Source: Norana najaformis (Eukaryota; Annelida; Clitellata; Crassiclitellata; Hormogastridae). Taken from it: 64,000 bases of DNA. The notes under the pieces are model-generated. The model was not told the DNA's origin. It saw only the letters and a program-made list of their open reading frames with translations, and made no database searches. Below are positions 1 through 62,878 of this stretch, piece by piece (positions within the stretch are counted from its first letter, which is position 1; every line of letters begins with the position of its first letter). The position numbers and the translations under genes were made by a program. The DNA lies in assembly GCA_964023275.1 (NCBI GenBank), contig OZ029927.1, forward strand, positions 11,945,226-12,009,225, written 5' to 3'.

Positions 1-1676
1 TCATTTGTAGCAATTAATACAACGCCTGGGATTCAGAGAAAATCTCTGCGAGAAACGTGCACATTTCAGTGGTCTGTAACTGGACCTATATCTGGTTATA
101 CCGTATACAATCAAACACTTGGATACTCCACATCGTTGAATCTGAACGCCAATTATACACTAGACAGCCAAAAGGGGGTGATCACTCTTATCATACAGAA
201 GATCCAGTTGTGGGATGCTGGAAACTACTCGTTATCACTGACCACAGGAATAACAAAAGAATCCAACGCCGGTGCCTTGCTTTTCATGTTCGGTAAGTGT
301 CCTGGTCTATTTTGAATACGGACATTTATAATTAAACCCACACGTGCTGCGAATGAATGAATCGTGTACAAATATTTATGTGCCCGTCCTCATAATTTTC
401 AGCATCATACTACAAAAACTTGTGATAATGTGGCTTCGGTTTCTTATTTGCACTTGTCGTTTTAACCGGCCATTCTCGCAGCTCACTTACTCATTTACCA
501 AACACTGCTCATCTTATGTTCTTTCACTGATCCATTTCCCACACTGCACTTCACCTCTGCAATGATCTTCGGCTTGAATTCAGCGAATTCTCTGCCCTTA
601 AAGCCTTTCTGTCATTCACTCAGCATCACATGCCTCAAGAGCCCTTATATCTCTCATACCTCAGGGGTTACATTTAAAATTAAAGTCCTCTTCTTCTGTA
701 AATCTTCACCACACAACTATATCCATATTACCTCACAACTGATCTCACCGACAAACTAAAACTCATTTTCAAGAAATCTTGCCTTGTTCATCCATTTTCG
801 CAGCCTTCCCAGTTCTGTTAAATGAAAGACAACACACGTAGCAGTAAGATGATGATGGTGATGAAGAGGATGTTAAAACACCAATTCCACCAAGATCATA
901 TTGTAGGCATGTGTTTGACTATATTGGTGTACATAGTTGTTTTTCGAATGGTAAAGAATAGCAAACAAGCGTTACCTAGATTTCAGTAATGAGCTCAATT
1001 TTAAGTGCATGGCCTGCGCCTTTTTAATAAACCCAGAAGACTGAAACGAAAGAAAGCAAAAATAGAAACCAACTGAAAGGGAACAAAAGGTACTCAACAA
1101 GGTGAAAGAAAAATAAATTCTTACTCAACTGGCGGCTCTTTAATAAAATCTTGCAATATGTTTTGCGGTTGAGGCATTATCGGCGACCTTCCAAAGTCGT
1201 CATTTGATCTAGTCTCGAATTGCAAACTCTCCGAATTTGTCGTATATTAGCGTTAACTCCGGAAAAAGACACATAGTGTTTGATTTTCTGACGTATAGTT
1301 AATTAAATGAACAGTTCTTTCACAACAGTATTGAAAATCGCCGACATAAAATCCTCAGTACGCACAAATCTGTAAATTGCTACTGCAAGCTGTAATCAGT
1401 GACCTTTTTTAATTTAATCAACTAAATATACGACAAACTACATAGCCCTTTTCCCGCCGAGTCAGCAGACAAGTCTAAAGAAGAGTATGAGTCACCGCTG
1501 ACTTCATTCCGTGCGCGCGAAAGCCCACCAGTCATAAACAAATCAGCAAACCGATGATTCCTCTACGTTACGTCATGGAAATTTTCTAAACAAACACGCG
1601 CTTAAAACTTGCTAACTCATCAACGGATATATTACATTCTCGGTCATAAAGTTCGGAGAATGTTGGCGTGTAATAT

Positions 1677-2114
1677 TTGCTGCTTTACATAATATGCTAT
1701 TTCGTTATTACAAATGATAAGAAAGACGTTGAAAGAAGGATACTGGCCTTCGGGAGAAAATGCTTTAGGAAGATTATTAAAGTAAGATGGACACAAAAGC
1801 TGAGCAATGCGGAACTATACAGACGGATACATCTCAAAGAGAACTTGATGCAGAGGGTTGTCCAGAGACAAATGGGCTCATTTGGTCACGTATGCAAAAT
1901 GAGCAACGATAGGAAGATCAAGACATTAGTATTCGGAGTGATGGATGGTACAAACAAGAGAGGACGACCTCACAAAGAATGGGTAGACGACATAATCGAA
2001 TGGTGTGAAATATCACTCCAGGAACTGAGCCACGCCACGCTGGAAAGACAACAGTGGAAGAACATAGTGAGAATGGCATCGGACACCTACGGGCGTTGTA
2101 CTCATGGTAAATGA
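1677..2114 (+). mobile_element. C-terminal remnant of a non-LTR (LINE) reverse transcriptase
   Basis: The 145-codon frame has the pattern common at the C-terminus of LINE polyproteins: an ERRILAFGRKCFRKI-like start, then LMQRVVQRQ, KRGRPHKEWVDDIIEWC and a RQQWKNIVRMAS end. No palm-domain motifs lie upstream, so this is the usual 5'-truncated insertion. It ends directly in a GAT/ATG-rich simple repeat (about 2110-2150), as expected for a LINE 3' terminus. It sits in the D1-D2 intron of gene A. The exact clade is not resolved. Confidence 0.75.
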
Positions 2115-2150: not shown

Positions 2151-5100
2151 GCTATATTTATTGTGCTGTCGTTAGCAGTCATTCTTAAATTGCAATTTTA
2201 CATCAATTTTACACACAGGCTCATGAAATTCAAAACACGCAGCTCATCTTATTGATGCTTCTTATCTATGTTATATAAGACATTACAAAAGCTGATGAAA
2301 TTACTCATGAAAAATCATATAAATTGCTGACTTGGTGGCTTCTAGAACTTACATGTTGCTGAATGAATGACGTTGCAAAGCATAGACTTAGAATATTTCA
2401 CTTTGTGCTAACAAAACTGGTAATTAATATTTAGGTGATTCCAAGAGTTTCGTGAATCAAACGTACGGAATCAGGCCACCACCAGCAATTGAAGGTGATA
2501 CCATAGAACTGACTTGCACTGTAACATCGACTTCGTTACCGGTGGCTTATAGACCTAAGATGTACTATTTCTGGTATTTATCCTTCTACGGACGCCTCCA
2601 GAACATTTCTAGTGGACCAGCGATGACGGTTGATGGCGATTTACTCCCTGGATACAGCATCAAGAACGACGGCAGGACACTCGTCATCGCTTCGGCTCAG
2701 CATCGTGACGCTCAACGCTTACGTTGCTATGGGCGGGAAGAATGGTCGCCCTACACATCTGACTCTATCAAATCGCAAAGGGAGGCCATACTGCATTGCT
2801 TTCGTGGATTACCTCTTTAAAATAGATAGGCAAGAACAAATCTTAAAAGTTCAGTGTCTATATCCGTGATCTTAAGCCAAAAGCTGATTCGCGCTCAACT
2901 GACAAAGGCACGCTTATTATCAATCGTTCGGATCAATGGTTTCTATCAGGAAAAGGGAAAAATGAAATAAAAGTTGTGAATTGAGCTTAGAAAGCAGGCA
3001 TGCAGGTAGCGATATTTAATCTATTTAAAGTTTTTGAAAAAGGGTATTTCGTAAAACTACGCAAATGTGCATTTTATGTGATGCTTTCCATGCACACTGT
3101 GATTTTGTTTGGTTTAAATATCTCCAATATCTGTCTTTATAGATCACAATTTATAAGAAATTCGATATATTTCCGCAACATCAAAGTGAAAATTTCTAAA
3201 CGCATCTTTAATGTAGGTCTTAACATTTTGATTCAAGACGAAAACATTTTTATGTCGGTATTTTAAAACAATAAATTATTAATTAAGGGCTATATAAATT
3301 AGATCCAATTATAAATGAAGGCCAAATATTGCCACAAGAATAACGTTTTATATGATATATGTACTGTATTTCCAGGGCCGCCTGATACACCATTGAATGT
3401 GAGAGCAGACTTTTTATCACATTATCTCATTGTAATTTCGTGGAACTGTATGTGGTTTAATGGCCGTCCACAAAAGATCTTGTGGCAACTGAAAGTTCCG
3501 GGTAACGATAGCGTAATCGACTCTTCGAATAGTTCTGTATCAAGCGACTGTTATAATTCAAGTTATACCACAAGGTTTCAGAACGGCATTCAGCCTGAGA
3601 CGAACTATGAGATCAGCGTTTGGTAAAACAACGACCTTGGTTCCAGTGATGTTGTCAAATTAACGGTGAAAACTACCAAAACATTCAAATTCGTCGTTTC
3701 TCCTCAGAATATATCATTCAACGAAAATCAAGCGATTGTGAATTTCAGCGCCACTGATGGCAAAATAGCAAGACTTGACGTAACATGTTGTATTGAATTG
3801 ACCGGAGATTGCTACTCTAATTATTACTACAATGTTAATGACACTCAAGTAAAATATGACAATCTGCCAAAAGGGAATGTGTATATATTCGACTTTAGAG
3901 TGTATGGTGGCAGAAATTTATATTACTTGACAATGGTGAAAGGCGTTAGAGTGTCGAGGATTGAAGATCCCGAACCTGTTGGTGAGTTTGAATCTAAAAA
4001 ATAATGAAAATCGATTTTTTAGGATTCAGAATATTCGCTTCCACGGGTACGCAAGTTTTTCAAGTAGAGTGAATTATCTGGTCCTTGTTGCACAAGCTCA
4101 GATAATATCTAGTCAGGGATATCATTGGTGGATAACCTTTTGAGAAATATAGCCTGGGATGTGTAGTCTGTTATTTCCTGAATTTATATTTATTGACGAT
4201 AATTTAGAAACAAGTACTTAAGATACAATGCAGTATCGTCTAGGCATGGATATAGTCATCGCTAATAAGTCACCAAGTTGACCAGCGAACAATAGAAGTT
4301 TGTTGGCATCAATTTTTATGCTACAGAGAAAGGCCCTCGCTTTTCTGCGCGGTCATCAGTAACCAAAAGTGTAATCCTATTGAGCACTTTATGGTAGAGT
4401 CATAAGAGATTTGCTTTGCCTCTTATATATCCACCATTCCCTTGCTCGTAATGTAATGTATTCAAAATGCAGAGAACACCTTTGAATATTCTGTCTAGCC
4501 TTACTTTTTGACTGATCTGAAGCGTCAGATTTGTACTCATTGATAAAATGGATCCAATGCTTCAATATTTTCAAGGAATTAATATCTTTCCTTCACAGAT
4601 GGCGAAAATGTGAATCCTCTGCTCATCCCGGTCATTATTTTGGGGGTTCTTTTTGGAGTCAGTGTCTTAGCGTTGATCGGCTGCTTCATTGCTTTTCTCG
4701 TCTGCAAATGTCATCAGAACATGCAGCCCAACAACTCACAGCAAGCACAGGTAAAAACTGTTAAATAGTCTATAGTGATTTTGTTTTGAGCATAAATCGG
4801 CAACTAGTCCTATTGTGTCTAGTTAATTTCTCAGTTATATCAATAATAACTAAAACGGAATGATTTGTCCCAAATAGCCTAGTAGAACTGTATGATCGTC
4901 TATCCAAGCACCAATCGCAATCGACGTTTGTTAGTTTTATTGTGTTTACTAGCGTCCTATTCACAGCGCCACGCTAAAAGTTATACTTAATACAATTGTA
5001 AGTTTGTATGATGTCATCTTGAGCTTGAAGCAGACCTATACGTTCATGCTTTACATTGTCCGACTAGCTGCATCGATGTCTTCCTTTCTGGTATTTCTAT

Positions 5101-5880: not shown

Positions 5881-6248
5881 TGCGCTGCAAATGAAATACA
5901 AGAGAATTTTAGTATTTACACATTTGGCTGAATTTCAACTGTACAATATTTATCTGAAAATCACAATAACCATGACAGCATTGCTACAGAAAATGAACTT
6001 TTCACAATCTGGCTAATTCCATTTACCTCCCGCCTTGTCAATGTTTTATAGACGTATGCCTTTAATCGTTGTGTATGTATTAGCAGCCACGGACACAGAC
6101 AAACGCCAGAGCTCCGAAATCAACCACACAGCGGCAAAATGAGACGTATGAAGAGGAGGAAGACACATACGAAGCGGTTGAAGATATCCCTTCACAGAAT
6201 TACGCTAATTACACATCACTAAAGGTTCGATATTTTCTCTCTGTCTAG

Positions 6249-8313: not shown

Positions 8314-8540
8314 ATGTTTAACTGGATTTTAAAATTTCTTACAAATCGCTCCTTTCAAGTGAAAGTGGGGTCTGAATGTTCAAACGTTTTTCTACAAGAA
8401 AATTGGACACCTCAGGAATCAATAATATCTCCTCTGTTATTTCTAGTAATGATCAATGATATTAACCCTGGTAATGATAATATAGAAATAACACTTTTTG
8501 CAGACGATAGTGCTATCTTTTATGCAAATAAAAATATTAA
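8314..8540 (+). mobile_element. Non-LTR reverse transcriptase fragment abutting gene B
   Basis: The frame carries two reverse-transcriptase palm signatures in order: TPQESIISPLLFLVMINDI (the usual G-x-PQGS-x-LSPLLF motif, degraded at the Gly and the PQGS) and FADDSAIF, the catalytic ADD box. The type resembles jockey/CR1-like LINEs. Homology stops at about 8540, where receptor FN3 sequence begins mid-exon. It is a short piece of an element that replaced or deleted the 5' part of gene B. Confidence 0.8.
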
Positions 8541-10956
8541 GTTAAGTTGGCCATTAGAACTCCAAAAAGACTCATCTTCAACACTTCTTCGCTAACATAT
8601 CAATTATTGGAACCCAGGCTAAAATCAGTTTTCACATAGCTGATTCCACTAAAGCTACAATGTGGCTAAATGTGACTTGCTGTGAGGAATTAACGATACA
8701 GTGCAGTAACAAATTGTACAACATAGCCAACACCGACAATCAAATTGCTTTTAACACATTACCAACTGGAACTGAATATGTATTTGACTTCAATGTGTAC
8801 TATAGTGATGGATACACCTACATGTATACTATGGCGATTGTAAATGGTGTGCGAGTACTATCAAAGATGGAAGGTGTGTCTCCTATTATATAAAGATTAT
8901 TTTAAGAACTTCGGGAAGGTTAGTCATGTAAATAAGAGCTGCTTCGAAGTCATTCGGGATTATGCAATTCTAATCTGAATGGCTGAAACGATGTGGGCTA
9001 ACAACTGTTTAAAATGCGTCAGGAGCAGAGAAGACTTAGCTGAAGCTTAAAATATTAGTTCTGGAAAGGAAACAGTAATAGCTGATTACTAGAGAGAAAG
9101 CAGTACCAAAGGGAAGACTCCTCAATCTAGAACCGAGCTGGACGACCAATACTATAAAAACAAATAGCTGGATTAACCGACAGTGTATTTCAGACCAAAA
9201 AGTTTCAGTGCAATTTATTTTTTATTTAAAGAGGAAAATTTCTATGAATGCTTAAAAACTTTATAGTTTTTACTTGAAAGTTGAAGAAAGAAGTGTGCAT
9301 TTCGTATAAAAATTGCAAACACAAATCGAAAAGCTTAAATAAGAAAGTTCTAGCCTAGCAACAAAATTAATCAAAATTATGTTTTCAAAAATTTCGAAAC
9401 TGACTTTGAACACAGATGCTATTTATATGGAAAATCACCAGCAAGGAACATTTCTCTTACTCTATAATTAAGTTAGACCTTCGCAAAAATGTGTGAATTC
9501 TTGAAACTGTAGAATTTTCTTTTGTACATTTTTGTTCATTTTGTTGTTTAGTTATTTTACGTTGAATTTCATTTCGTTCAATCAATGATTTGTAATGTTT
9601 CCGTGCATCTTGCTAGTAATTTATCGATGCCATTAGGGTCTACCGCTCGCATTTAGGCTATCGTTATTCAGTATATAAGATAATAATTCTGAATTTATGC
9701 AATTTCTACCAAATGCTGAAGCACCAACCCTAATTCCTGGTCTGCTCGTTGCAGTCATTGTTCTGGCAATCCTTTTTGGATTCGCTATCTTAGGACTAAT
9801 CGGCGGCTTTGTAGAGTTTCTTGTCTGCAGATGTCGGCAAAAGCTCCAGCCGAACAACATACACCAGGTATGATTTTTAACAGAAGTTTTTAACACCGAA
9901 CATTTCGGCAATACGTCTAAGCATATTATTCTGGTTCAAATGCAACCTAAGATATCACAGGTGTTACTAACTAATTTCATTTTAAATGTATAATTATTTT
10001 AAGTAATTTTTTTAAACTTTCATAAAAATACAAGGCATATTTACTAAATTTCGAGAAATCAATTTGCAAACATTATCATTCTAAATTAACTGGTCTTTTG
10101 TGATGCTATTATGCAAGTTGTGTGTTGGGAGAAACAAGGAATGTTAATCCTCTCAAAGAGCACGATTGGGAAAAGTAAAATGATCAGAATTAGTGATATA
10201 TATTGCTTCGTTTTTTATTTATTTTATTTGATTTAAAGTGTTGCCTATTTTCATGGTAACTCTTACGTCAAGGTTACGTCAAAACCTTTTGAGAGGATAC
10301 ATATTTATTTACCACCTTTTTAGGTGACATGAGTGTTACTTCTTCTAATACCCATGCTTATCTTCGACAACAACGTATATACTGTATACCTCGTCTAAAT
10401 GTACAGAAAATTTTATAACACCGTGTTAGGTTAACAATTATTGTTGATCGCTTTCAACAGTTACATACATAAATAGTGCCATGAGTAACAGTTGATAACT
10501 TATCCTAGAGTTTATATGCAATGGAATAAAACACATATTTACGGTCGTTGCAAAACAGTAAATATTTACAAAAACTGCTTTCTAAACTATACTGATGCGG
10601 CCCACGAATAGCATACGGCTTGGAAAGCACTGATGTTGAACTTCTGCTGTTTTATACATGAATTTCTATTGTATTGCAGCTAACAATCGTTATTTTGTGC
10701 TTACGATCATTCTGCGCATAATGCACTGTTTGTGCTGTTCGATGACTAAAGAATGATGACCAATTTAAAGACTGTATTGTGTTTTCTGTGCTGGCAGCCA
10801 CCAACAGCTGGCATAACTCGTCTCTCGAATGCAACAGGACTCCACACGACAACAAATGAATATGAAGGAGACAGCAACTGTGAACAAGCACCAGATTCGT
10901 CAAGCTGTTATAAACCCCTGGATCTTCTTCCTCTGCAGCCTAAACTTGGATACTGA
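8541..10956 (+). pseudogene. Receptor gene B: 3' remnant (half FN3 exon, transmembrane, tail)
   Basis: Receptor homology starts in the middle of the FN3 exon (8541-8873) right after the RT fragment. A one-base deletion near 8590 (TTCTTCGC where gene C has TTCTTCCGC) breaks the frame. The transmembrane segment (about 9701-9867) encodes VAVIVLAILFGFAILGLIGG, but no CAG acceptor lies where E has GCAG|ATCC; B reads GCAATTTC. The tail exon 10798-10956 ends in TGA. The tail tyrosine that is YEQI in E is CEQA here, while YKPL survives. No signal peptide or Ig exon was found upstream. It groups with C and E by tail and intron sequence. Confidence 0.8.
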
Positions 10957-13468: not shown

Positions 13469-16400
13469 ATGAAGTTTTTGCTATCGTGTTGTTTTTTGGC
13501 CCTGCACATCACCAGGACCTTTTCAGGTGAGGTATATATTTTGTCGAGTATTCTTCGCGTTATCATCAGACTCTTACTTTCTACATATTCTATTGGCGGT
13601 CTTTGATAACGTTTGAGCATAGAAAATCAGGTCAAATTTACGCGCCGACATGCCTAACTCAATGGTCGTTTATATTTAAAATCGATATGCATGCAAAGTC
13701 TTATATGAGTCTGGTAGAAACTTAGAGAGCCAATTAACTGATACAGAGAAACAGCCTATGAAAAATTCGGTCTGAAATAAGAGTTTTATTCGGTGTCTAA
13801 AGGTCGAAACAGAGCCCGAATACGGAGAACCAGTCGCTTAAGGTGTGTCCTAGGACTGAATAATACTTCGCTTATAAGACTTAACAACGTTTAATGAAGC
13901 GGGATTCAAGCCACGAATGCAGAGGTTCAAACAACATTTTGCAATCTACCAAAGTGCCATCCAATAAATGTTTCATTGGATCTAATCTATTCTACTTTGA
14001 TCTGATCTGATCTGTTCTTATATAATCCGAATTTTGTATCATCTGTTATGAACACATGATCTGATCTAACCTAATATGACCTAAACGGTTCTAATCGAAT
14101 CTAGTCTAATCCATTTCAGTCTAACCCCATCTAATCTAGTCTAACATAATCCTAAGATTCCTGTAGCGCAATAATCAGAATTCACACTTATTATCGATTG
14201 GTATGAAATCATAATCAGTATAGCAATCCTTTGAAGAATTTAAGTAAATATTAAACGCAGAATATGGATAAACTTTTGCAAAGTAAATAATGAGCAGAAT
14301 TGATCATCTATTTTTGATCCATAGACAAATCTATTTCTTTGCATCTAAAATTCGTAAGGCCTGTAAACAGTCGAAGCTGCCGATTATATTCAAATTTTCT
14401 AATTTTAGCTAACAATATTTAGGCCTACAGAGACATACGCTATTCAACAGTAAGTAAAAAATAAATGAAATTATTCAGAAAACTTTTGAAGTATAAAGTG
14501 CTTACATTTACTAAGAAGAATATTTAAACTTTGCTCTGAGTCATGTAAATGGAAGCGTCGTTGCGAGTTTTGATATTGACTCCAGTTCCAAGGTTAGGCT
14601 ATTTGAAAATGTTTGAATGACGTTTCAATAGAGTGCATGTCATACTAACATGCACTGTTGAGTTATTCTCTTTTACATAATCCAGTAATGAACACATAGA
14701 TGCGTATACAGACATCTCTAAATGAAGTGTTCAAGCGGGCGATAATTATGAAACATTATGAAAAAGTTATTTTTAATTTGTTTTCAATTCATTAGTTACA
14801 ATATCATCACCTGGGATGCAAAGAAAAAGCCAAGGGGAAAGCTGCGTGTTTCAGTGGAATGTAAATGGAAATTTTACAAATTACACTATCCACAGCCTTT
14901 CAACTGGAAGTCCAACAGTTTTACGTCTGAACACCAATCATACATTCGATAGCAGGAAAAGCGTGATCAAACTGTGGATATGGAATATTCAGCTGGTTGA
15001 TGCCGGAAATTATTCCTTGTCAGTCAACACAGGAACCTCGACTAAAGTGAACTCGGCTGCCTTGCTTTTTGTACACGGTAAGTGTTCATTTAGTACTGTC
15101 TAATACATTGTTTGAAATTGATTCAAAACTCGTTAACTTAACTGCTTTATAATTTCGTCGGAACAATACCGCTATTACAAAATTTGTATTTCGAAGAAAT
15201 TATGAAGTAATATTTTATTCAGCGCAGGCTCAAAGAGATCTCTGGTAAAATCCACTGTGGTTCGAGCTTATCTTTTAATAGCCCTACCTATCCCTCCTAT
15301 CAGTACGGGCCATGAAAGAATTCATCATAAATGTTCCCATTTTTTTCCAACAGACGGCGCCACAGCAGGACCACGTACGCATGTGTCTAACCGTATTATT
15401 TAAGTAGATTATTTATTTCAAGCAGAGACTCGTATATAGTAGGCCTATTTCCAAAATAATATCAGGTTGATGTGACTTAGGTTGATCTAAATAGTAAGTA
15501 CAAAAATTTCATCAGTTAACGTTTACATGTCTTCGCTGGCAGATGCTCACTAGTTATGTTTCTTTTAAAATCTTTTTTACATGGTATTTGTAAAAAAATA
15601 TATGAATCTTCTCATCAAACAACTACGGAGGCGCGTCTCAATATCAGAATCTAGACGATATCGGCTAGTTTTAAGGCACAGTGTTGTAACAGTTAGGGTC
15701 GCAGCTACCTAATACGAATAAAGTGGAAGACTGTTCCAAAGGAAACGGACGCACACACCTCCACGAAGGCGTTATGCTGCTTCATGAGAGTCCTAGCCAA
15801 GGATAGGTCAGCCTGGTTAAATGAGAAGAGAAATATAATTGACAAACGTAGCAAGCGCGCATAGGAGATCACAAAAAACATGAACTTTTGACCTCAGTGT
15901 TCTTGCCAATAGAAGAAGAACCTTAAACTGAAACTGGGACGATATGTGCAGCCAATGAAACGAATCCTAACATCATTTGGTACCTATTATTGCACATATG
16001 ATCTACTTTGAAGGATACATTATAAAAGTAGGCTGTGATTTATTGAAACCGGGTGTGTGCTCAATTTGTATCCTATCAGCACACAGTAGAATTTTTTATC
16101 TGCCCTTAAATCAAACTTTATCAAACAGCATTAAAGTCATTTACCGTTTCATGTAAATCTTTAAAATGATGAATCCATGATTAACTAACTATTTCAGCTT
16201 ATTTCTACGCTTTGGTAACCGTCACAGTCGGACGAAATCCAGCTTTTGAGGGCGATACCATTGAATTAAATTGCTCAGCTGTTTCTGAGTCATTGCCGGC
16301 AGCGTTTCGATCTAAAATTTACTACTACTGGTACAATAGTTGGTATGGCTATCTCCGGAACATATCCAGTGGACCTGCTTTGTTACAAAATGGAGACGTT

Positions 16401-19400
16401 CTTCCTGGATACAGTATAAAAAATGAGGGAAAGTCTCTGGCTATTGCCTCAGCTCAATTTACAGATAATAATTTTCTATGCTACTGTCAAGAAGAAGGGT
16501 CGCCTTACAAACCTGGTTTTTCGCCCTACTTACAGATTTACAGTGAGTATGTTGCCTAATTATTGAATTGTTATGCTTTGACCTCGATATAATTATATGG
16601 CATATGTAAATACCACAAGTTTAAAGTCTAAAAGTCCTAAAGGGTCAATATTTCTAATGAGAAACATAGCCTACGTAGGCTGATTGGAAGTCCATTATCC
16701 ATTGGAAGCGATTATGCGAAGGCTGTTTGGGCAGAACACCTCCGAAGTTACCAAGTAGCATAAACCTTAAAAGTGTCTGTTCTAGCTCAGTGAATCATGC
16801 ATTCCGTAAACTCTGTGACATCTGAGAGGCTATTCAGAACGCAGTAAAAATGCTTTCTAATAACACAATGCAATACAATATGCCACAATAGAAAACACTG
16901 CAATACAGTTCAATGCAACAAAATGCGGTACAGTATCGAGTTATCGTCGGTGCACTGAGCTTTACCTTTGTGCAAGCGCTTGATCGGATCATTTTTCAAA
17001 ATTAACGGGTTGTATTGTGTATGTTCTTAGCATGTCTTCCTGTCTGAAGCTTTTCTCCATTAACTGTTTAGCTCACAGCCAACTTTTTTTCCTTGTCCTT
17101 TTTCACAACTATGGTCCGTGCGGTTGCCTCGGGGCGTCTTCCAACCTTTATTTGCTTTACCCACATTGACCCATACGTTGTTACATTACGTCATGGACAC
17201 TGCATTGCAATTTACATAGCGCCACAAATAGAGCGAACTACTCAAGGCGATCAAAGTACGAGGGCCCCGGAGAAATAGATGAGTTAAAAGCAACATGTTG
17301 CAACATCATATTGAATCATATTGCATTGTGCTGAATCAAAAGAGCAAAACCAAAGAAATAAACCAGTCTATATGTATTTATCTGTTTATTTGCAAGGTTT
17401 TGTGGCGTCCTTTCGGTCAATGATCTAGAATTTCAGAAACTGTGCGCCTTTTTACTTGCTATTTGCTTAAAGCCTATACATATTTTTAAATTTTAGGTAA
17501 ACCCTACACGTATTCCTTCAATCCCGCAAGCAGAATATTCAATGCAGCTCTTTTCAGCTATATCTATTGCTATTTCAATTACATCGCAAATCCTCCGCTG
17601 ACATCCTATACCAACTGGATTTTCATCAGTGAGTCAGGACCCACAACCGAATTGCCTCTGACTATAAGTTCCAATAAATCTGGTTCAGTATCTCTTTCCT
17701 TTCAACTCTCCTCGTCGAACTCTTATGGAAATTACTCTGTCACCTTGACGAATAGGAACGGTTCAAGCACAGAAACATTCCGAGTTCTTCCGCCAGGTAG
17801 GCCTAGATATGTTTTCTCTAACAATTCATAACATTATTTTGGATTTCAGTTACACATCCATGCTTTTGTCACATATCTTTATTATTGCGTTGTTTAAAGA
17901 CCTGAATTACTAGACATGACCACTGGAAGGACGTCAAACACACTGAAGCTCTGCCTTAATTTAACTTCTGTAGTCCATCTTACAGTCTAATGGGTATCGT
18001 GGATCTCGACCGGTTCTGTATAGTGGATCATGATTTTGGAATAAAGTTTTGCTTAGAAGCCACCATTGACTGATGTCAAGTGCGTTACGATAACGGCGCT
18101 GTGCAATATATTGAATTACATTTTAATCGTTTGAGATAAAATATAATATGCTTGTAGTCTATAATTAAGTGACAACAGTTACAAGTGTTAAAGGGATATA
18201 CTGTTTATAGGACCACCTGATGTGCCATCGAATTTCAAGGTACAATACGTGACAGACAGTCTCGTCTCGCTTCAGTGGCGGTGCATGTGGTTTAACGGCG
18301 ACCAACAAACAGTCTTTGTACGACTGATGGATGTTTCAAACAACGTAGAAGCTGAAGCTCAAATTGTGACTCTTGCAACAAATTGTTACAATTCAGCTTA
18401 TAGCACACTGTTTCAAAACAACATTCAATCCGAGACCGACTACGAGGCGAGCATCTGGTCAACCAATACACTTGGATCCAGTAATGTCGTCAAGTTGGCC
18501 CTCAGAACTCCAAGAAAACTCATCTTTGAGACTTCTTCCGCTAATATATCAATTACTGGAACTCAAGCTACAATCAATTTTCTCATAGCAGGTTCCACCA
18601 AATATACAATGTGGTTAAATGTGACTTGCTGTGTTGAGTTAACAATTCAGTGCAGCAACAAATCGTATATTATAGCCACCACAGACAACCAAATTGTTTA
18701 TGACATATTGCCAAATGGAACTGAGTATGTTTTCGACTTCAATGTGTATGATACTGATGGTTACAACTACATGTATACTATGGCGATTGTGAAGGGCGTT
18801 CGAGTCTCAAGGACAAAAGGTGAGTATACTGCTATAAACATCACAATAGCTGTATAGCTTTGAAATAGTTTAGTTATTGGAGAGGTGAAGACACTCCAGT
18901 ACAAAATCACTTCAGTACACACGGTTCTGAGCTGTAAAGAAAGGCTGAAATTGTATGGAATAATAACTTTGAAAAGGGGATGTAACAGAGTAGACTTGAT
19001 TGAAGCTTGCAAGATTATTACTGAAAGAAGCTGTGCCTAACAAGACAACCTAGCATCGAACAACACAACCGGATGTCACTGACATAAATGGTTAGAGGAA
19101 CCGACAGTATATTTATAACAGAAATTCTACAATGCAATTTATGTTATGCTCAACCCAGAAAACTTACGTAGGTGTGTATAAGCCTTAGGTAGAAGTGCGT
19201 TTTTTAATTAAAATCTTTACTAAGTTTTCCAAAAGGTCGAGTGTAAAAGCTGTAGTCTAGCAGAAATGTTTTTGTCACAATAATCTTCAAACAGTGTTAA
19301 ACTTGGTTTTAAACAAAATATTTCTGATACGAAATATAATAATAATAGTGAGCAATTCTGACACTTTGTCTCCAAAGAAACCTAAAATATTGGAGCAATT

Positions 19401-41721: not shown

Positions 41722-44391
41722 GACCACCTGATGCGCCGTCCAATTTTAACGTACAATACGCGACACAGTCTCGTCTAGCTTCAATGGCGCTGCATGTGGT
41801 ATAACGGCGACCAACAAGCAGTCCTCGTACAACTAAAGGATGTTTCAAACGACACCGAAGTAGAAACTCAAATTGTTACTCTTCTACCCGATTGTTACAA
41901 TTCATCTTATAGTACGCTGTTTAAAAACAACATTCAACCAGAGACTGACTACGAGGCCAGCACCTGGTCAATTAGCACGCTTGGTTTCAGTAACGTCGTC
42001 AAGTTGGCTGTCAGAACTCCTAAAAGACTCACCTTTGCTACTTCCTCCGCTAGCATATTAATCATGGAAAGTCAGGCTACAATCAATTTCCGCATAGCAG
42101 ATTCTACTAAAGCCATAATGTGGCTAAATGTAACTTGTTGTGTTGAGTTAACGACTGAGTGCAGTAATAAATTGTACAACATAGCCAACACAGACAACCA
42201 AATTGCATTTGACATTTTACCAACTGAAAATGAATATGTATTCGACTTCACCGTGTATGATAATGATGGCTACAGCTACATGTACACAACGGCAATTGTG
42301 GTAGGGCGTGGGAGTGTCAAGAATACAAGGTGGGTTTCCTGCAGTAGAAAGATCATAAAAATTGGATGACTTTCACATAGGTCACTTATGTAGAGGAGAA
42401 AAGAGGAAAGCTTCGAAATAAGTTAAGGCTGAAATGAAGTGCGCTAACAATTTTGAAAATAAGAAGGAGCAGAGATAATGTTGAAAGCTTAACCGAAGCT
42501 TATAACGTTATCACTTGAAGGAAGCAGTGCTAACTAATTACTTGAAAGGATGCAGTACTAAGGGAAAATTCTTTAATCTGGCATCGAACTAGGCAACTCA
42601 ACATCACACAAACAAGCAGAGAAATCGAAGGTATATTTAAGGTAGAAATTCTTCAGTGCAATTTATTTTTACGTGGATAAGCTTCAGTTAGAAAGTCGAG
42701 GAAACAAGGATGTGTTTGAAGTACGAGAAGCTTAAATGTAATAGCTGTAACCTGGCACTTATATATTTCTCAAAACTATTTGCAAAAATGTGAAATCTGA
42801 CTTTGTACACAGATCTTAGTCTTACAAAAAAATCTCTAACAATAAAAAATTAATTTAAAATTTAGTTGGCCCTGTGTTAAAATGGGTGAATTCTTTAAAT
42901 TTATAATTGTGGTTTGAGCATTTTTGGTCACTTGTTTGTTAGTTATTTACATTGAATTTTATTTCGCTCAACCCGTGAATTGTAAATATTTCCCGTACAT
43001 CTTGCTAGCAATTTATTGATGGCAAGAGGACCTTAAAGCACTTTTTAAAGCTATCGTTAGGCTTTGTGTACTCGATGATAATTTTGATTTTATGCAGATC
43101 CTACAACAGATAAACCAATCGCCGTGACAACTAGTGTTTCAAACGGCACCGATATCGTGACAAGTATAGAGAACGCGAATGTTCTGCTAATTGCGGTCAT
43201 TGTTCTAGCAAACCTCTTGAGATTTGCTATCTTAGGACTAATCGGAGGCTTGATAGCTTTTCTTGTCTACAAAAGGCGTCAAAAGCACCAGCCAAGCAAC
43301 TTACACCAGGTATACCTTTCTAATAGACTAATCGGATTGCAAGGCGAAGGATTTCGGCAATACATCCAAACAAGACATATTACCTCGAGACATGTTATTC
43401 TGCTTCTAATGCAACTTAAAATATGACAAATGGGACTTATTTTATGCTAGATATTTAACTTTTAAGTAATTTTTAAACTTTCATCAAAATCTAAACTATA
43501 GGGCCTATTGGAGACATGAGAGTGGAAATATTATCGGTTTATAATGCTATCATATAAGCTACGTGATGAGAGAAACAAAGAAAACTAATCTTCACAAAGC
43601 GCACGATTGTGAAGAGTAGTTTAATCACTTAGTGATGAATATTGCTTCAGCTTTTCTTGATTTTGACTGTTGCCTATTTCCCTGATGTCACTGCTACGTC
43701 ATAACTTCTGAGGAGATTACATATTGTTTTTGGAATTTAATAATACCATCTTGTTGGGTGACGTGAGTGATACATGCTTTAATAGGCGTGTATAGACATG
43801 TAGATGATGTATCTCGTCTGAACATACAGACAATTGTATAGCACCAGTTTAGGTTGATAATTAATATTGGTCGGTTTTAGCAGAGTTACAAATGGCAATA
43901 GCGCAATGAGGAACAATTGTTATCTCATCTAATAGCCTGCATGCATTGGAATTATACGCACATCTATGATCATAATGAAATAGCAAATATTAATATGAAA
44001 CTGCTTTTTAACCATGATAATTGGGTGAATAATCAGAATAAAGTTTGAAAAGCATTGAGGTTGAACTTATGCTGCTTTGTATATTGCATTTATATTGTGT
44101 TGCCGCTAGTACTCGTTAATTTGTGTCTACGGACATTCTGCGCAAGGCACATTGTCTGTACAATTCGTAAACTTAAGCGTGATGACCACTTTAAAGACTG
44201 CATTATGTTTCCTGTGTTGGCAGCAACCTCCAACAAGCATCACTCGGCCCTCTAATGCGAAAGGACTCGACACGACAACACACGAGTATCAAAGAGAGAG
44301 CAACTATGAACAAATACCGAATCCGTCAGCCTACAGTCACAATTACACACCGCTCCATGTTCTTCCTAAGCGGGCTGAGGTTAGATACTGA
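41722..44391 (+). pseudogene. Receptor gene E: 3' remnant (FN3, transmembrane, tail) with frameshifts
   Basis: FN3 exon 41722-42329, transmembrane exon 43098-43309 and tail exon 44224-44391 (TGA) are recognisable and mostly open. Defects: a 2-bp deletion near 41763 (GCGACACAGT versus ATGACACACAGT in D), an in-register TAG at 41776-41778 where paralogs have TCG, and an extra base near the end of the exon. No signal peptide or Ig exons lie in the 2.6 kb upstream. The helix carries Asn and Arg (VLANLLRFAILG), unlike the intact copies. The tail is the best ITAM match in the window: YEQI, nine residues, YTPL. Introns and tail group it with C and B. The good 3' exons suggest recent loss, or possible use as spare sequence for gene conversion. 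Confidence 0.8.
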
Positions 44392-45299: not shown

Positions 45300-45430
45300 G
45301 CATGTATATGGCTATTTATATAGCGCCTTTAAGAACCTCACAAACGCTCCAAAACATGGGCATCTACAAGTTCTAAAATGGTGCGATTTAATATGAGGTG
45401 AAAATATCTCCTGAACTGTGAATATAAACA
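45300..45430 (+). repeat. Dispersed GGCTATTTATATAGCGCC repeat
   Basis: GGCTATTTATATAGCGCCTTTAAGAACCTCACAAACGC and the following TCTAAAAKGGTGYGATTTAATA recur at 57640-57740. Shorter or diverged copies lie at 22637, 36425, 48836 and 52665. It is a short interspersed family with no coding content. Confidence 0.75.
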
Positions 45431-45479
45431 AATAGCCTGACATATGAACCTAATTTTAGGCGTAATGTGAAAACACACA

Positions 45480-46859
45480 AAAGTTGTCAACCGGTCGGTG
45501 TGTAGCTGCAGAGGTGTGTCGGCACAGAAACAAAGCATTTTGGATTGCCACATCCAATAGATAATCAAAGATAGCCCACCACCAGTTTCTGGATCTGAGA
45601 GATATGTGGTATGTGCCATCTTATCGGCTCCGCCCATATGTCTGTTGTAGCGGTCGATAGCATATTGCATGGAGATGTCCACAAATTTCTTTCGGATCAT
45701 GACCACCTCTTAGCCGTGTCCAGTGGCTCGATGTCATGACAATTGGAAGCAAGTGTAACCACAATGTTGTCGTGCCAGTGCGTCGCAATTATTACAGATG
45801 CTGTATCTAGTCTGCAGTCAAAGGCGACCCAATCTGAATTCTTGACCTTGTCCACAGACAACACCCGGACAGTGTCAACTCAGTTGGTTCAAACTGTTAC
45901 GGTTGCCTGGATGTTCTTGATGCTCAAAAAGTCAAGCAGATTCAGGCTGGTGGAAAAATTGTGAAAATACAGTGTGTATCTGTCATCAGCTGGAGGCAGA
46001 CAGTCTGCAAGCTTGACAACGGCAGAGCCCGCAAGACCAAGCTGGCTGTCGGTCATTACAGCTCCTTGATATGGATCCATCTGAATTCAATATCCAAGTG
46101 TCGTGTTGATGCTCTATACCTTGAAGCCAAATCGTATAGGTTTGCCACAAATAAATTGTTTTGCACTGTGTCTGCCATAGTACGGTACCAATGATTCGTC
46201 ATTTGACAACTGTGTTTGGGACCGCAGAAATTCCGCCAAGAACCGTCGATTCAGAGCGTCTAATAACAGCTGAACTGTGGCCATTCTCTCATTTGGTGGC
46301 AAGTGTTCATTGTCCGCAATGTGTAGACACATCATTAGTTCGTCAAATCTGTTTCCTCTCATTGCACAACTGCTGGCCGAGTTCTTTACATCTTCTGCTG
46401 CCTCCCAGTAGAGAGAACGGCGATGCAGTGGAGCAAATTACTGTTCAGAAGTTGATGGGGCCACTTGTGCCTAGCGTCCCCAGAATGGGGACGGTATATT
46501 CCGGTATACTAAAAAATTAACTAAGCATCACTCAACACTACAAAAATAGATGCAGATAGCTAAGAGACAAAATAGCATAGGCTTATGCTCACATGTTTTA
46601 TTGTAATGTGTTATTGAAGGATAATTCAAGGTTATATGGATAACTTTATTGAAATTCTAGATTTACCATAATCGTCACAACAAAGCCATCTGATTACGAA
46701 CAAACAAATAATTTTCTGCCCATTTATAGCCTAGATGAAAGATAATTCAGTAGACTGTCGGCAGAAATAGTTGGTTACACTCAAGATTGCTTTATAGAAA
46801 AAATAACTCTTTCCATATAGGGGTCCCCATTTTGGGGGCGCTAGGCATTAATGGGTTAA
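45480..46859 (-). pseudogene. Dead piggyBac transposase and element remnant
   Basis: Minus-strand frames read in order like the DDE domain of piggyBac transposases: HRRSLYWEAAEDV, MRGNRFDELMMCLHIADN, QLSNDESLVPYYGRHS, KQFICGKPIRFGFKV, DPYQGAVM, LYFHNFSTSLNLLDFL, and DRYNRHMGGADKM near the C-terminus. At least two stops separate GFKV from DPYQG, and there are further frame breaks, so it is inactive. The right end is TTAA at 46856-46859 after CATTAATGGG. A 23-bp inverted repeat (46470-46492 and 46823-46845, 21 matches) lies inside it. No left terminal repeat was found. The related flanks of B and C lack it, so it arrived after duplication. Confidence 0.85.
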
Positions 46860-55967: not shown

Positions 55968-55985
55968 TCTGTTCAGTCATTCAGG

Positions 55986-58900
55986 ATGAATATTGCGATC
56001 CTGTGTTGCTTTCTTCTCCTTTGTGCGACCCATGTTTTTTTAGGTGAGTTCACAGGTGTTCTTTCAGATTAGAGTAGGGCTTATATTACAGGTTTTCAGT
56101 TTTCAGACTTTGATATACTTTGTGAATTACCACTTGCGATAAATGAATGAGATCAAATAACTCAAGTCGATAAAAATTTTGTTTTAAACAGTTCACTGTG
56201 TAACTTGTATAATTTAAGTCTTAATTTGGATGATTTCAATCATTAACCTTTTTTAAAATCAGGCTAATTCTAAAATTTTAAACTAATCTGCGAAGTCGAT
56301 TATGGAAACACGGCGAAGCAGTATAGGCTGCCATTTATCTGCCAACAGTTACACGCCGCTGTTTATCTTTTCTGAGTTGTGACAAATCTAGTATGAAACA
56401 CATACGCACTTTATACTGCCCAAAAGGTGGTTAACGCCTTCGTTTAGATGTAAAAAAATGCAGGACAATATTGAAACCTGGCTATTACTATTTCAAGCGT
56501 GTTTAAAATATAATATTCTCTATGGTAGTAACCATATCGACACCTCCTATGCAAAGAAAAAGCATAGGAGAAAGCTGCACATTTCGTTGGAACGTCACAG
56601 GAAATTTTACAACTTACACGATCAAAATTCTTTCAACCGAAAGTCCGACAGCTTTGGGTCCAAACACCAATCACACGTTCAGTAGCATTAAAGGCGTGAT
56701 CACTCTTTTCATATGGAACATACAGACTTCAAATGCTGGACATTACTCTTTATCAATCAGCACAGGACCTTCGACTGAAGAGAACTCTGTTGCCGTGCTT
56801 TTTGTATACGGTCAGTCTATGTTTAGCAATAAACTACAAGAATAATCAACTTGATTTCTCAACGCCTTTGTTTTAAGTAATGCCACAGGCACATAATTAC
56901 TTGCCTAAGTATTATTTTCTGTGATATGCAAAGGTAAAAGAGAGAATCGCTTTCAATTTTATTAATGTTTTTCTTATCTTAGTCGATTTTCCTGATTTAT
57001 TATTTGATTTAAGTTCAAAAGATAAAAGATTTGCAAACGTTAGGTTCTTACATTGTTTTCAGCCATGCCTAGCTCTGACACAATTCTTGCTGTTGGACGG
57101 AATCCAGGTTTGGAAGGTGATAAAGTCGAATTAAATTGTTCAGCCTATTCTTATTCGTTACCAGCAGCGTATCGAACAAAAATGTACTACTTCTGGTACA
57201 ATAGCTGGTATGGTTATCTTCGGAACATGTCCAGTGAACCTGCAGTGCTGCAAAATGGCGACGTTCTTCCTAGATGCAGTATCAAGAATGATGGGAAAAC
57301 TCTTGTTATTGCTTCAGCTCAGTATACGGATACTGATTTTCGATGCGCGGCTCAAGAAGAAGGATCGCCTTACAAATCTAGCTATTACAGTTTTCTCAAT
57401 TTAAAAATCTATAGTGAGTATTAATGTTTTTGTATTAGAAATGATAGTCTAAAATACAAAAAAATCCATTGCTGATAAATACTGTAGCCTTTACATTTGA
57501 GCCATTAGCCTACCTTTCCCCATAGATTCGTCCTTTCGCATAGCCCTTCACCTTAGGCCCATGCTAATTCATTCTCAGATCATTCCTGTTTCTTCTCGAG
57601 TGGATTTATATATGATCCTTTTATACGTATGTATTTATTTACATGCTATTTATATAGTGTCTTTAAAGAACCTCACAAACGCGCTAAACGTGGCTAACTA
57701 ACAGTTCTAAAAGGTGTGATTTAATAGTAGTCAAAAATGTTTATTGAGCTGTATCTTTGGAAAAAGTAGGTATTTTAAGAGAAAGATTGCTCAGAAAGGT
57801 CGGTCCAGTTCACAGGAAAGCACGATATGTTCGCATCATCGAACTGGAAAGCGAGAATAACAAGTCCTTACGGGTCGCTGAAAGCAATGATCGTCGACCC
57901 GGCTGGATAGAGACAGATACATAGGGCTCAAATAAAAAAATTTCCAAAAGTTCGAACAACCCCGGCAGAAATTTCCTCTAACATAATCTTTTGTAAATCC
58001 AAGTTAAATAAAGTGCCACTAGTCTCAACGAAACGAGTACAATGTTTCTCAATTATCCAAAGTGGGCTAAAGCAGGTCGAGAGCTGCCATGTATAATTCC
58101 GAGATTAAGTTGTGGCTCAGTTAAAGAAACAATTACAGCGCCTTTTTATATTATGGCAGACAGCTACATTACGGGCGATTTCGCTAGACTTGAAAAGTGT
58201 TATTACAAACGGTCTAAACATCTAAATGTTGAGATTCATACATATATACACAAACACCTATTTTAGATAAACATATGTAAGTGAAACGGTGGTTAGAGTT
58301 GGTACATTGCTAAGGCAATTTGTGAGCATGGTAGGTAGAATTTACTTTGCAGTTACCACGCTAAACTATTCAGTCTAAGAGTTAATCCGCCTTTTTTCAC
58401 ACCTATACTCACACAAACAGAATGTATTGCAAGACCTTGCAAATATCCTGACCTTGCCAAATTCATGCATGTCTGGAACACACAATATTCTTAGGACTCT
58501 CGTTTGGAATAGACCTCATTATATTTCGTTGATCTATTAATGTTCAGCTGTTCACGGAACAACTAGTGTATAATCATATCCTAGGCAATAACATGCTTCT
58601 TAGCCCTGTCATTTTTATTCTCAACTTAAAACTTGCCTTTCTCAAATAACTTATTCACTATAGACTGCCTCTCTGTCTTAGTGGACTGGATACTGAACTG
58701 ATTGTAGCTTGGTTTTGGTGCGCCATCGGTTGCCGCCTTGTGCATTAAACGTCGGTGCCATAGAAGCTACTATCGGATCTTATTAAAATCTACCACTGTG
58801 AGCAGTATAGACTATAGACGATTTTCTTAATTTCTAAAATTGTCTTGCACAATAAAGGCCTGCATTGTTTTTATCGACTTTCAGCTTTCCTGTGCCTTTG

Positions 58901-61900
58901 CACTAATGTTCCTAGCTGCATTTCGCCAATTTTAGAAACTTAGTATTATGGTATATTTTAAGCTTTCTGATTTCTTGTTTGTTTCCCTTAACAGTGAATT
59001 TATTTATGTTTTAGGTAAACCCTATACATATTCCTTTACTCCAGCCAGCAGAAAATTCAACGCAGCGATTTCTTCCTATGTATATTTTTACTTCTATTAC
59101 CAGGCAAATCCTCCATTAATATCATATACCAATTGGAGTTTCGTAAATGCTTCAGGAAGTACAACGGAATATCCCGTGATGTCCAATCCTTGGACCTATA
59201 GTGAATTTTTTCTTTCATTCACACTTGGCTTAGCGGGTTCATACGGAAATTACTCCGTCACCTTGACCAATAATTACGGTTCAGTAACAGAAACTTTCCA
59301 AGTTCTTCCTCCAGGTAAATGTAATCGAATGAAATATGCAAATTCATATAATGCCGTTATCGTAACGCCAAAGACATCAATTGATGGGGCTTCTAAGGCA
59401 AACTGGATTCTGATTATTATGTATCTTTGAATCGAAATAGTCAAGATCAATGTAGCCCAAGAGATCTGGGCTTGGAACTCAGCTTCAAATATTTCTTACA
59501 AAGCGCATGAGAACACATCAGTTCCCACGATTTAACCTTTTAGGTGCTGACAAATTCCAGAAATTACAATAACGTTTAAAGTCAGAGAAAACTATTGGCC
59601 AGGACTGCCAACATGAGAGCTATGGATTAATTTAGCCGCACAGTACTGCCGGAGTAGTGTTGGTGCTCCCGGCCAGACCGGTAACACCAACGTATATTTA
59701 GATCACCGCTGATATCCAGTTAAACCTTGGGTTTTTCCATCTAATCTCGACCCGATTAAGTCGTCAAATGCATTGCACCAACAGCGCACTGCGAGTGAGT
59801 CTCGGAATAAATTCACCCATCAAGTTTCTAACTTCAAGTAAATTCACCCAAAAGCTTCGAATGACGATGCTGAGTAGCCTGAATCTTACAGCTAAAAATC
59901 AACAACATTACTAGCTTATGTGTTAATGCTACATTAAATATCTGTCGACTTTTACAAACTGTATTTCAATATTTACAGGACCTCCTGACAGCCCCTCGAA
60001 TTTCAGTGTACAATACGTGACACACAGTGTCGTCTCGCTTCAGTGGCGCTGCATGTGGTTCAACGGCGTGCAACAAACAGTCTTTGTGCGGCTAATGGAT
60101 GTTGCAAACAACGAGGAAGTAGAAACTCAAAATATTCCTCTGGACACGTATTGCTATAAGTCCCGATACAGCACACTCTTTCAAAACAACATTCAACCTG
60201 AGACAAACTACGAGGCGAGCATCTGGTCAATCAACACACTTGGCTCAAGTAATGTCGTCAAGTTGGTGGGTGTCAGAACTCCTAAAAGACTCATTTTCGT
60301 TACTTCTTCCGCTAACATATCAATTATTGGAATCCAGGCTACAATCAATTTTCACATAGAGGATTCCACTAAAACTATATTACGGTTAAATGTGACGTGC
60401 TGCGTTGAGATAACGACTCAATGCAGCAACAAATCGTACATCGTAACCAATACAGACAACCAAATTGTTTATGACATTTTACCAAGTGGAAATGAATATG
60501 TATTCGACTTCAATGTGTATGATACTGACGGCTACATCTACATGTCTACGTTGGCGATTGTGAAGGGTTTGCGAGTGTCAAGAACAAGAAGTGAGTCTAC
60601 TGCTATAAGCCATAGTGTTTATTATTATTATTATTAATTATTATTATTTATTATTATTATTAGTCTGTAAATGCTTCTATTACGCTAATTTATAAATTCA
60701 CCTAAAAATGTGGGTAGCTGGAAAAAGATAAGTCTTCAAATAGTTCGCGAAATGAAATAAGTGAAACAGAAGGGTTCTTCAAAGCTGCTGGTTATAAATT
60801 CGATAGATGTGGACCAACTCGTGAAAAGGCATCGATAGCAAACGTCTTTTAAATGGATAAATTGTGGGCCAGAGGAAGCAGATCTAAAGTTTTTCCTGGT
60901 GGGAATCGGTGCGAGTGGAATGCAAAAGTCAGCGAGGTAACTCGAAGCTAAATCATGAAGCGCCTTGTATGAAAGTACAGTTACTTTAAACTTAATCTCA
61001 GCTGGAAATGATTACCAGTATAAATAAGACATTAAACCTGTAACCGGAGATCTTGAAGGAAGCTGAAGAACAAGGCAAACGGCTATCATAACGTTCAGTA
61101 GTCATTGACTTAAGCCATCCATAAGTATTTATTATTCAAATTAAATTACATCACATTAGTAGTTTAGAATTAAACAATCAGATTCTTAGAAACTGTATAA
61201 CTTTAACAGCATATCAAAAAGAATGACATATTCTGAACTTAAATAGACTTGACAGTTGGCTCAAATGATGCAGGTTTTGGTTAATAATCAATAGCCTTAT
61301 GTTTTTAGAAAAATTTCCAACTTCATTTTTATGTACAAAATTACCAACCTTTTCTTACATATTTTCAGCATATTCAAAATGTGTGGGTTAAGCGGATCAT
61401 TTTTACACTTAGCGCTACTGATTTTTCTTGTGCTATTTTACGTTTCAATAAAATTGGATAAATGATCATTTGGAAAATTCTTCAAAACACTAATTGGATT
61501 TTGTTTAAAGTTTAATTATGCGTTAATTGTGTCATTCTGGTTGACTTGCGTAAACTCAGTTACTGTAGATGTGGGCTATACAGATCCGACGACATACACT
61601 CCATGTGACACAAAACCCTTTCCATATAACACAACCGCCCTTCCATATGGCGAGAAAGAGAATCCACTACCCGTCGCAATCATTGTTCTTGCCGTTCTTT
61701 TGGGAGTTGCTGTCTTGGCGTTGATCGGCTGTTTGATCGGTTTTCTTGTCTTCAAATGTCGTCAGAACAACTCATATCCGGTAAATAGCTTTTTGATAGT
61801 CATGGCTCTCTTACTCGTTAGTTTAATACTCGCTAAAATGAAATCGTGTTGAAACATGGGCCCTACCCTTAACCTGAAATCCATGTTACAAAGTATAGTA

Positions 61901-62878
61901 CGCTAGAATTCCCAACATTTGAAACAATTGTATTTCAGTCAAATAATGCAGAACCTAATATATATTTATTTATTTATATTTCACCATACAAACATAGCTG
62001 AAGTGCAAATATCACATTTGGAATCCAAAAACCGTGCATAGATTATAAAGATTTATAAAGATCAAGTACAATGATAACTGTTTGCATTTCAAATTAGAAG
62101 CAATGTGAAACCGGTTATAGATTAAGCCCCGTTGTAACCGTATGTCTCCCTTGCTATATCTAATTTAATCTAATCTAAAGACTTCTATAGCTCCTTTATC
62201 ATAATGCCCAAGGCATCAGTCATTGGTCGCTTCAAGCCGAAATCACTATCAAAATCATAATCCATTAGGGAAGCCGGGTCGAATTATGATATGTGACGAT
62301 TGAAGCGAAACACTTAATAATAATCTATAAAAATCACAGCTTATTGCATACACGTGTAAGGCATTACAACAGATATCGTTGAAGAAACTTAAGCTAAAAT
62401 GTTTCCGATTCTTCATGGGTGGTAATGTAACTTGTTTTCAAAACGAATGTTCATCATATATATTCTCCAACTTAATCATAATTGCACGCTGATAGATGAA
62501 CCGGAAACAAGGAACATAGATTATCGTTATTTGCCAGATTGTATATAATTACTAATCAACTATTTGTACAGCTCCAGACTACACAGACTGTGCTACATTT
62601 GCGTACAAATTCTTTTACTCATGGCCACATTGATGTCTGCCGTTAGAATCTCTTTTTAAGATGGATGTTATTTTCTGTTCTGGTTGCAGTCAGCAACAGC
62701 TAAGCCCCAAGTGCCTAAAAGAAGTAAAGTAGACGACAGAGAGTCATCGGACTACGCCAATGCAAGGGATTTGTTTAAACCAGCGGTGGACTTGAATCCG
62801 TCGAAGGGGAATGCTTATTATAAATCGCTCGAAGAATCTTCTGAGAGAGCTAAGGTATTATTAGATATTGAAACGTAG
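55986..62878 (+). CDS. Receptor gene F: intact Ig/FN3 single-pass receptor with tyrosine tail (Alr-like)
   Basis: Exons 55986-56043, 56529-56810, 57063-57413, 59015-59314, 59979-60590, 61584-61780, 62690-62878 (TAG) join in frame to 662 residues. Signal peptide MNIAILCCFLLLCATHVFL. D1 (20-113) has ESCTFRW and NAGHYSL and lacks the F-strand Cys. D2 (114-230) has ELNC and FRCAAQEEGS. D3 (231-330) has TNWSF and YGNYSV. FN3 pair 331-534. The extracellular stalk is longer than in the paralogs. The helix is about 563-591. The tail has YANA (Y622) and YYKSL (Y643, Y644), eighteen residues between the two motifs, too far apart for a canonical ITAM. D1 and the following intron are nearly identical to gene D, while the tail differs. 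A splice at AAG|GTATTA before the stop, leading to a further exon, cannot be excluded. Confidence 0.85.
57640..57745 (+). repeat. Dispersed TATTTATATAG(C/T)G repeat in gene F intron
   Basis: GCTATTTATATAGTGTCTTTAAAGAACCTCACAAACGC and AGTTCTAAAAGGTGTGATTTAATA match 45305-45400. It lies in the D2-D3 intron, which is longer here than in C or D. Confidence 0.75.
60617..60662. repeat. (ATT)n microsatellite
   Basis: TTATTATTATTATTAATTATTATT directly after the FN3 exon of gene F. Confidence 0.9.
62155..62300 (+). repeat. Intronic repeat shared with 5745-5880
   Basis: TAATCTAATCTAA, GACTTCTATAGC, CAAGGCATCAGTC, CGCTTCAAGC, and GGGTCGAATT occur in the same order as in the transmembrane-to-tail intron of gene A. 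Confidence 0.6.

Follow-up and report, generated by a model that had tools for sequence, protein, structure and literature searches.

The 64,000-nucleotide window analyzed here (G000:C15:11945226-12009225) is a slice of one single-locus array of about fifty receptor genes that share the same plan. The plan consists of a signal peptide, three immunoglobulin domains (Ig1, Ig2 and Ig3), a single exon that encodes a fibronectin type III (FN3) domain in its first half and a weaker FN3-like region in its second (the FN exon), a transmembrane (TM) helix and a short tail. The genome comprises 608,420,607 bases in 17 contigs, and the array is located on contig C15 (~25 Mb). An earlier note on this DNA proposed a tandem complex of immunoglobulin superfamily (IgSF)/FN3 receptors with many partial copies. 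The proposal was borne out and the array proved far larger than the window, with at least 53 FN-exon copies across ~0.84 Mb. The array probably represents a lineage-expanded set of Ig/FN3 receptors at one locus which duplicate, swap exons, have tails that resemble the immunoreceptor tyrosine-based activation motif (ITAM) and serve in immune or self/non-self sensing.

A Single-Locus Array on Contig C15

The window, 200 kb of the left flank and three short stretches of the right flank were read as sequence, and the remainder of the array was followed via match tables in which the genome counts for the FN, Ig1 and Ig2 queries are lower bounds. The FN exon of unit D, one of six gene units in the window, produced at least 56 matches that resolved into 54 places, three of the matches being pieces of one broken copy (12,417,049-12,417,685). 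At least 53 FN-exon copies are situated on the forward strand of C15 between positions 11,716,809 and 12,549,231. The sole off-array match among the matches listed is a degenerate FN copy on the reverse strand at C15 11,416,385, ~0.3 Mb outside the array. A more divergent FN exon used as query elicited at least 52 matches, with 43 of these 52 covering at least 190 of the 207 positions without a stop. The Ig1 and Ig2 queries yielded at least 48 and at least 49 matches, respectively, all on the forward strand within the interval defined by the FN exons, and none of the two FN, the Ig1 or the Ig2 queries had a match on the other contigs of the 17-contig genome among the matches listed. By sequence, the FN exons form three or more groups whose members are intermingled along the array. 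Viral contigs scanned for relatives of the FN exon contained none. Overall, the C15 array holds many IgSF single-pass receptor genes together with pseudogenes in one interval, as is characteristic of Alr-type loci.

Organization of the Units in the Window

Every exon detected by tblastn searches of the window with the exons of unit D is on the forward strand: six are of FN type, six are TM exons, Ig1 and Ig2 are represented by four each, and Ig3 by three. The best pieces of the FN-type matches had E-values of 1e-36 to 1e-155, and signal-peptide exons were matched for units C, D and F. The six same-strand paralogs that the earlier note placed at positions 11 to 62878 were recovered in these exon matches and in joined reading frames, the two end points coinciding with the start of the unit A Ig1 exon and the stop of unit F. 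Its tally of intact and broken copies, three of each, also agrees with the data: units C, D and F are open, with joined frames of 643, 641 and 662 amino acids, respectively, and units A, B and E are broken. The architecture that it described (signal peptide, three Ig domains, two FN3-like domains, helix and tyrosine-bearing tail) likewise was corroborated, the second FN half being weak.

Unit D consists of a signal-peptide exon (29100-29157), the Ig1 (29553-29834), Ig2 (30248-30595) and Ig3 (31153-31452) exons, an FN exon with the FN3 and weaker FN3-like halves (32007-32618), and TM (33052-33212) and tail (34173-34337) exons. The corresponding exons of unit C are located at 13469-13526 (signal peptide), 14796-15077 (Ig1), 16198-16542 (Ig2), 17497-17796 (Ig3), 18211-18819 (FN), 19624-19796 (TM) and 20244-20408 (tail), and those of unit F at 55986-56043, 56529-56810, 57063-57413, 59015-59314, 59979-60590, 61584-61780 and 62690-62878 in the same order. 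For units C and F, a script set each splice site at the closest in-frame AG or GT dinucleotide. As their GT-AG borders and phase 1 are therefore partly by construction, the informative part is the placement of the splice sites at homologous positions across the paralogs in the window and flank, mostly exactly as the unit D model predicts.

Among the broken units, A comprises an Ig1 exon identified by tblastn (11-291), upstream of which the sequence falls outside the window, an Ig2 exon with an uncertain 3' end (2435-2803), an FN exon (3376-3981) that is interrupted by an in-frame TAA (3624-3626) and has no Ig3 match upstream, and TM (4599-4750) and tail (6084-6226) exons. Unit B is a pseudogene in which the FN exon is reduced to its 3' half, split between two frames (8546-8873), and is followed by a TM exon with an uncertain 5' end (9680-9867) and a decayed tail exon whose end is approximate (10795-10956). 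A reverse-transcriptase fragment (RVT_1, under the Pfam cut-off) at 8314-8595 directly adjoins the truncated FN exon, and an insertion here may have broken the unit. Unit E also is a pseudogene: the FN exon is frame-shifted and spans two frames (41722-42313), the Ig exons of unit D find no match in it by tblastn, and it retains a TM exon with an uncertain 5' end (43110-43309) and a tail exon (44221-44391).

Domain Assignment

Profiles were built from 10 to 13 paralogous exons and searched against PDB chains. Exons that contained stops or were outside the length limits were dropped; 13 of 14 Ig1 and 10 of 11 FN exons were aligned, the missing Ig1 and FN exons each spanning a block edge. All three Ig exons were recognizable as Ig domains from matches of their profiles to Ig chains: the Ig1 profile matched titin (E = 4e-12) and also Robo, the Ig2 profile matched FcR-like 5, CEA and antibody light chains (E = 5e-6 to 1e-2), and the Ig3 profile matched titin (E = 7e-12). 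In the membrane-proximal region, the first FN half corresponded to an FN3 domain of Tie2 (E = 2e-5). The second half is FN3-like at best because its sole match was to fibronectin with an E-value of 0.17.

When individual members were compared with Pfam at relaxed E-values, I-set was detected in 13 of 13 Ig1 exons, Ig_3 in 10 of 12 Ig2 exons and fn3 in 6 of 10 FN exons. In joined form unit D passes the I-set cut-off and unit C falls narrowly short of it. Three observations tell against the domain calls. Single exons score under the Pfam cut-offs; the FN exon of unit D taken alone has no fn3 match even at relaxed E-values; and in individual Ig3 exons MG2 (2 of 13, best E = 6e-5) outscores I-set (3 of 13, best E = 0.033, extending up to 0.5).

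The cysteine patterns differ among the domains. A cysteine in the B strand is present in 10 of 14 Ig1 exons with no second conserved cysteine, two conserved cysteines occur in all 12 Ig2 exons, and none is conserved in Ig3. The FN exon possesses four conserved cysteines in 11 of 11 cases. From these patterns Ig1 and Ig3 are predicted to lack the canonical disulfide bond, and Ig2 to possess it.

Tyrosine Motifs in the Tails

Motifs were assessed in 14 tails found at E-values up to 0.01, six in the window and eight in the left flank. The strict ITAM form was defined as two Y..[LI] boxes with a spacer of 6-12 residues and the relaxed form as Y..[LIVM].{6,12}Y..[LI]. The relaxed motif was present in 10 of 14 tails compared to a mean of 0.09 (maximum 2) in composition shuffles, a comparison in which the pattern was drafted with the tails already known and the shuffles disregard the relatedness of the tails. 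The strict form occurred in 3 of 14 tails (shuffle mean 0.06, maximum 2), and the second tyrosine box Y..[LI] alone in 13 of 14 (shuffle mean 3.0, maximum 9). In the window, the tails of unit A (YEAVEDIPSQNYANYTSL) and unit D (YEQMNMDSPRDDNFYSPL) are ITAM-like by the relaxed pattern and that of unit E (YEQIPNPSAYSHNYTPL) has the strict form. The tails of unit C (YEATMNPSTDNGYYTSL) and unit F, which has the tyrosine boxes YANA and YKSL, are non-ITAM by the patterns used.

Duplication, Exon Exchange and Selection

A copy of the unit C gene is located 340 kb from the original and matches it over 7.2 kb with 96.6% identity. Divergence between the two is 3.27% in introns and flanks, 2.84% in Ig1 and 0.33% in the FN exon. 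The compared codons contain nine amino-acid changes, four in Ig1, two in Ig2, one in the TM exon and two in the tail, with overall nonsynonymous (dN) and synonymous (dS) divergences of 0.0067 and 0.040, respectively. These few changes fit purifying selection on the pair, as judged from the codons compared.

Seven close pairs of units were chosen by hand for dN/dS analysis and provided 25 exon comparisons. The ratio ranged from 0.12 to 2.09 with the highest values in Ig3 and Ig2, and some close pairs showed values near or above one in these two exons. A significant excess of dN over dS was observed in none of the 25 paralog comparisons (lowest p = 0.11), all of which were drawn from a single haplotype. 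Diversifying selection was considered and set aside as unsupported by these comparisons and by the pattern in the unit C copy pair.

The nearest relative varies by exon in several units, including u11817 and u11797. The Ig3 exon of u11817 is nearest to that of unit C (90%), the FN exon is nearest to those of units F and D (89 and 88%, respectively), and the TM exon is nearest to that of u11782 (96%). Thus, exons have been exchanged between copies, since nearest relatives differ exon by exon.

The Host Genome

The Pfam domain Eryth_link_C, which we take to be the annelid erythrocruorin linker family, was matched 29 times across six contigs (best E = 8e-32). The control set for this domain consisted of 14 prokaryote genomes and is uninformative on annelid specificity. 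A group of 15 weaker matches (best E = 6e-9) lies on C5 at 34.4-36.9 Mb, mostly at 36.7-36.9 Mb on one strand, and is perhaps another expanded family. Nuclear inserts of mitochondrial COX1 are located on C15 at ~412 kb and 570-571 kb. The clearest of these, at 412 kb, is a decayed copy with frame breaks in which ~120 codons are readable, and for this reason its single codons are not to be pressed. It has four TGA codons, by our reading three at tryptophan places and one at a glycine place; we also read ATA at a methionine place, one AGA at a serine rather than an arginine place and one AAA at an asparagine place. Taken together, the codons speak for the invertebrate code and not the cnidarian mitochondrial code. 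The insert peptide closely resembles lumbricid COX1.

The host is probably an annelid on these indications. The earlier note had suggested an Alr-like complex such as that of Hydractinia or a comparable complex in another invertebrate. The second part of this suggestion fits the data; the identification with the Hydractinia complex itself is unsupported because Eryth_link_C domains and COX1 inserts point to an annelid host. The same domains, and COX1 codons unlike the cnidarian code, also are at odds with a location in a hydrozoan allorecognition complex.

Interpretation of the Array

The immune or recognition role that the earlier note had suggested is reasonable because a large tandem IgSF/FN3 complex is combined with ITAM-like tails in some of the copies. 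In the account proposed here, the receptors would be displayed at the cell surface, where the three Ig domains would form a variable head that binds ligand on microbes or other cells, and the FN exon would provide a more conserved stalk. Receptor clustering would lead to phosphorylation of the two spaced tyrosine boxes of the tail by Src-type kinases, and the phosphorylated tails would then recruit tandem-SH2 kinases in ITAM-type activation. The most likely sites of action would be coelomocytes or epithelia. In this account, tandem and block duplication generate new copies, which exchange exons and some of which decay. Along with the post hoc origin of the relaxed pattern, several findings weigh against this account: the strict ITAM form is confined to 3 of 14 tails; the inhibitory-type motif [SIVL].Y..[ILV] occurs in 4 of 14 tails, above the shuffle mean (0.96) but within the shuffle range (maximum 5), so that inhibitory signaling may apply; the first tail tyrosine is replaced by cysteine in the distant copy of unit C; and the paralog comparisons lack a significant dN excess.

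Systems of related design are known elsewhere. The closest precedent at the level of the locus, as far as the available portions of the published descriptions extend, is the hydrozoan Alr complex of Hydractinia symbiolongicarpus and Podocoryna americana. The C15 array differs in belonging to a probable annelid, in being compact (0.84 Mb) and in a plan of three Ig exons and one two-half FN exon, and the likeness is drawn at the locus level only. ITAM or inhibitory (ITIM) tails in several Alr proteins reportedly were noted by Huene in 2022. Among vertebrates, the KIR, LILR, FcRL and CEACAM families form tandem IgSF arrays and have tails with tyrosine motifs, but possess no FN3 stalk; the matches of the Ig2 profile to FcR-like 5 and CEA reflect generic Ig similarity, and the expansion on C15 is independent. 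Dscam, contactin and Robo resemble the array receptors in an ectodomain of Ig and FN3 domains with weak sequence or profile matches, and are encoded by few genes with long ectodomains and no ITAM-like tail. The closest spiralian precedent encountered is oyster CgIgIT2, an IgSF transmembrane receptor with a cytoplasmic ITAM that is reported to bind and sense microbes and to signal through ERK; it is compared here by description, and in the accessible part of that source it has five Ig domains, with FN3 domains and a tandem array unmentioned (PMC11999971).

We consider it rather unlikely that the receptors are Alr-like in function, that is, polymorphic homophilic adhesion receptors that arose by convergence or distant descent and that, by matching or failing to match, decide whether tissue in contact or grafted is accepted or rejected. 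The locus type is alike, one interval housing tens of IgSF receptors alongside numerous partial copies, and Ig1 and Ig3 do not have the canonical cysteine pair; in opposition, the host is probably an annelid and most annelids are non-colonial, the coding region of the 7.2 kb unit C copy pair is almost unchanged, and dN does not significantly exceed dS in any of the 25 comparisons. Annelids do reject allografts according to the available portion of the literature (PMC2248247). True orthology with the Hydractinia Alr family, which would make the family older than the cnidarian-bilaterian split, is the least probable explanation of all: domain content is similar and non-canonical Ig domains are shared, but Ig expansions often arise within lineages and V-set groups are found elsewhere in the genome.

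Roles outside immunity also were weighed. Expansion of cell-adhesion or neural-wiring receptors of the Dscam, contactin or Robo type for cell identity would agree with the profile matches, among which Robo, contactin and Dscam appear alongside titin. However, the titin and Robo matches are generic for Ig domains, and tandem expansion at a single locus, many pseudogenes and two-tyrosine tails are unusual for such receptors, which makes this explanation improbable. Duplication and exon mosaics, both evident in the array, occur in reproductive proteins too and would suit receptors for recognition at the gamete surface or in the reproductive tract that evolve by duplication; yet the tails suggest signaling and no sequence feature indicates gametes, and we regard this option as very unlikely.

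To our knowledge, no receptor gene has been assigned to graft rejection in annelids. A literature search by titles and the starts of abstracts, with most subscription papers beyond its reach, found no annelid tandem IgSF/FN3 array of this kind. Earthworms and leeches are reported, in the accessible part of one source, to reject grafts specifically and with a short-lived memory (PMC2248247). A more ambitious and speculative extension of immune or self/non-self sensing, to which we attach a low probability, is that the array corresponds, in annelids, to a histocompatibility complex. Its ~50 polymorphic genes, whose products would each signal via the tail they carry, would then constitute, with separate V-set clusters elsewhere in the genome, a large germ-line recognition repertoire behind graft rejection and short-term memory. 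The array supplies a short list of mappable candidates for annelid graft recognition. After cnidarians, annelids may prove to be a second phylum in which a single interval houses tens of IgSF receptors, some with ITAM-like tails, a case that bears on whether such complexes originate by convergence.

Neighboring and Additional Features

V-set domains in the genome were surveyed with Pfam. From 910 first-look candidates 150 were scored, all of which were over the cut-off and none of which was on C15. They lie mostly on C2 (0.5-5.5 and 34.7-50.5 Mb) and C4 (28.64-29.07 Mb), with further locations on C11 (2.15-2.36 Mb), C12 (14.68-14.94 Mb) and C16 (12.72-12.78 Mb). In a sample locus (L036), a V-set exon (E = 2e-11) is adjoined by two open frames with no Pfam match.

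Just beyond the left edge of the array, at C15:11707308 (L017:2083-2559, reverse strand), an open frame encodes a CARD domain (E = 3e-6). Pfam gave no backing to a HECT-type gene that had been suspected in the right flank. Scans of the window with Rfam at gathering cut-offs and for tRNA genes gave no matches. On the reverse strand of the window, a transposase fragment (DDE_Tnp_1_7, E = 1e-18) that we take to be piggyBac-type lies at 46114-46437, and an open frame at 45338-45709 appears by eye to continue it but has no Pfam match. A 75-base minisatellite at 22859-24164 comprises 17.4 copies with 97% matches and has several open frames on both strands.

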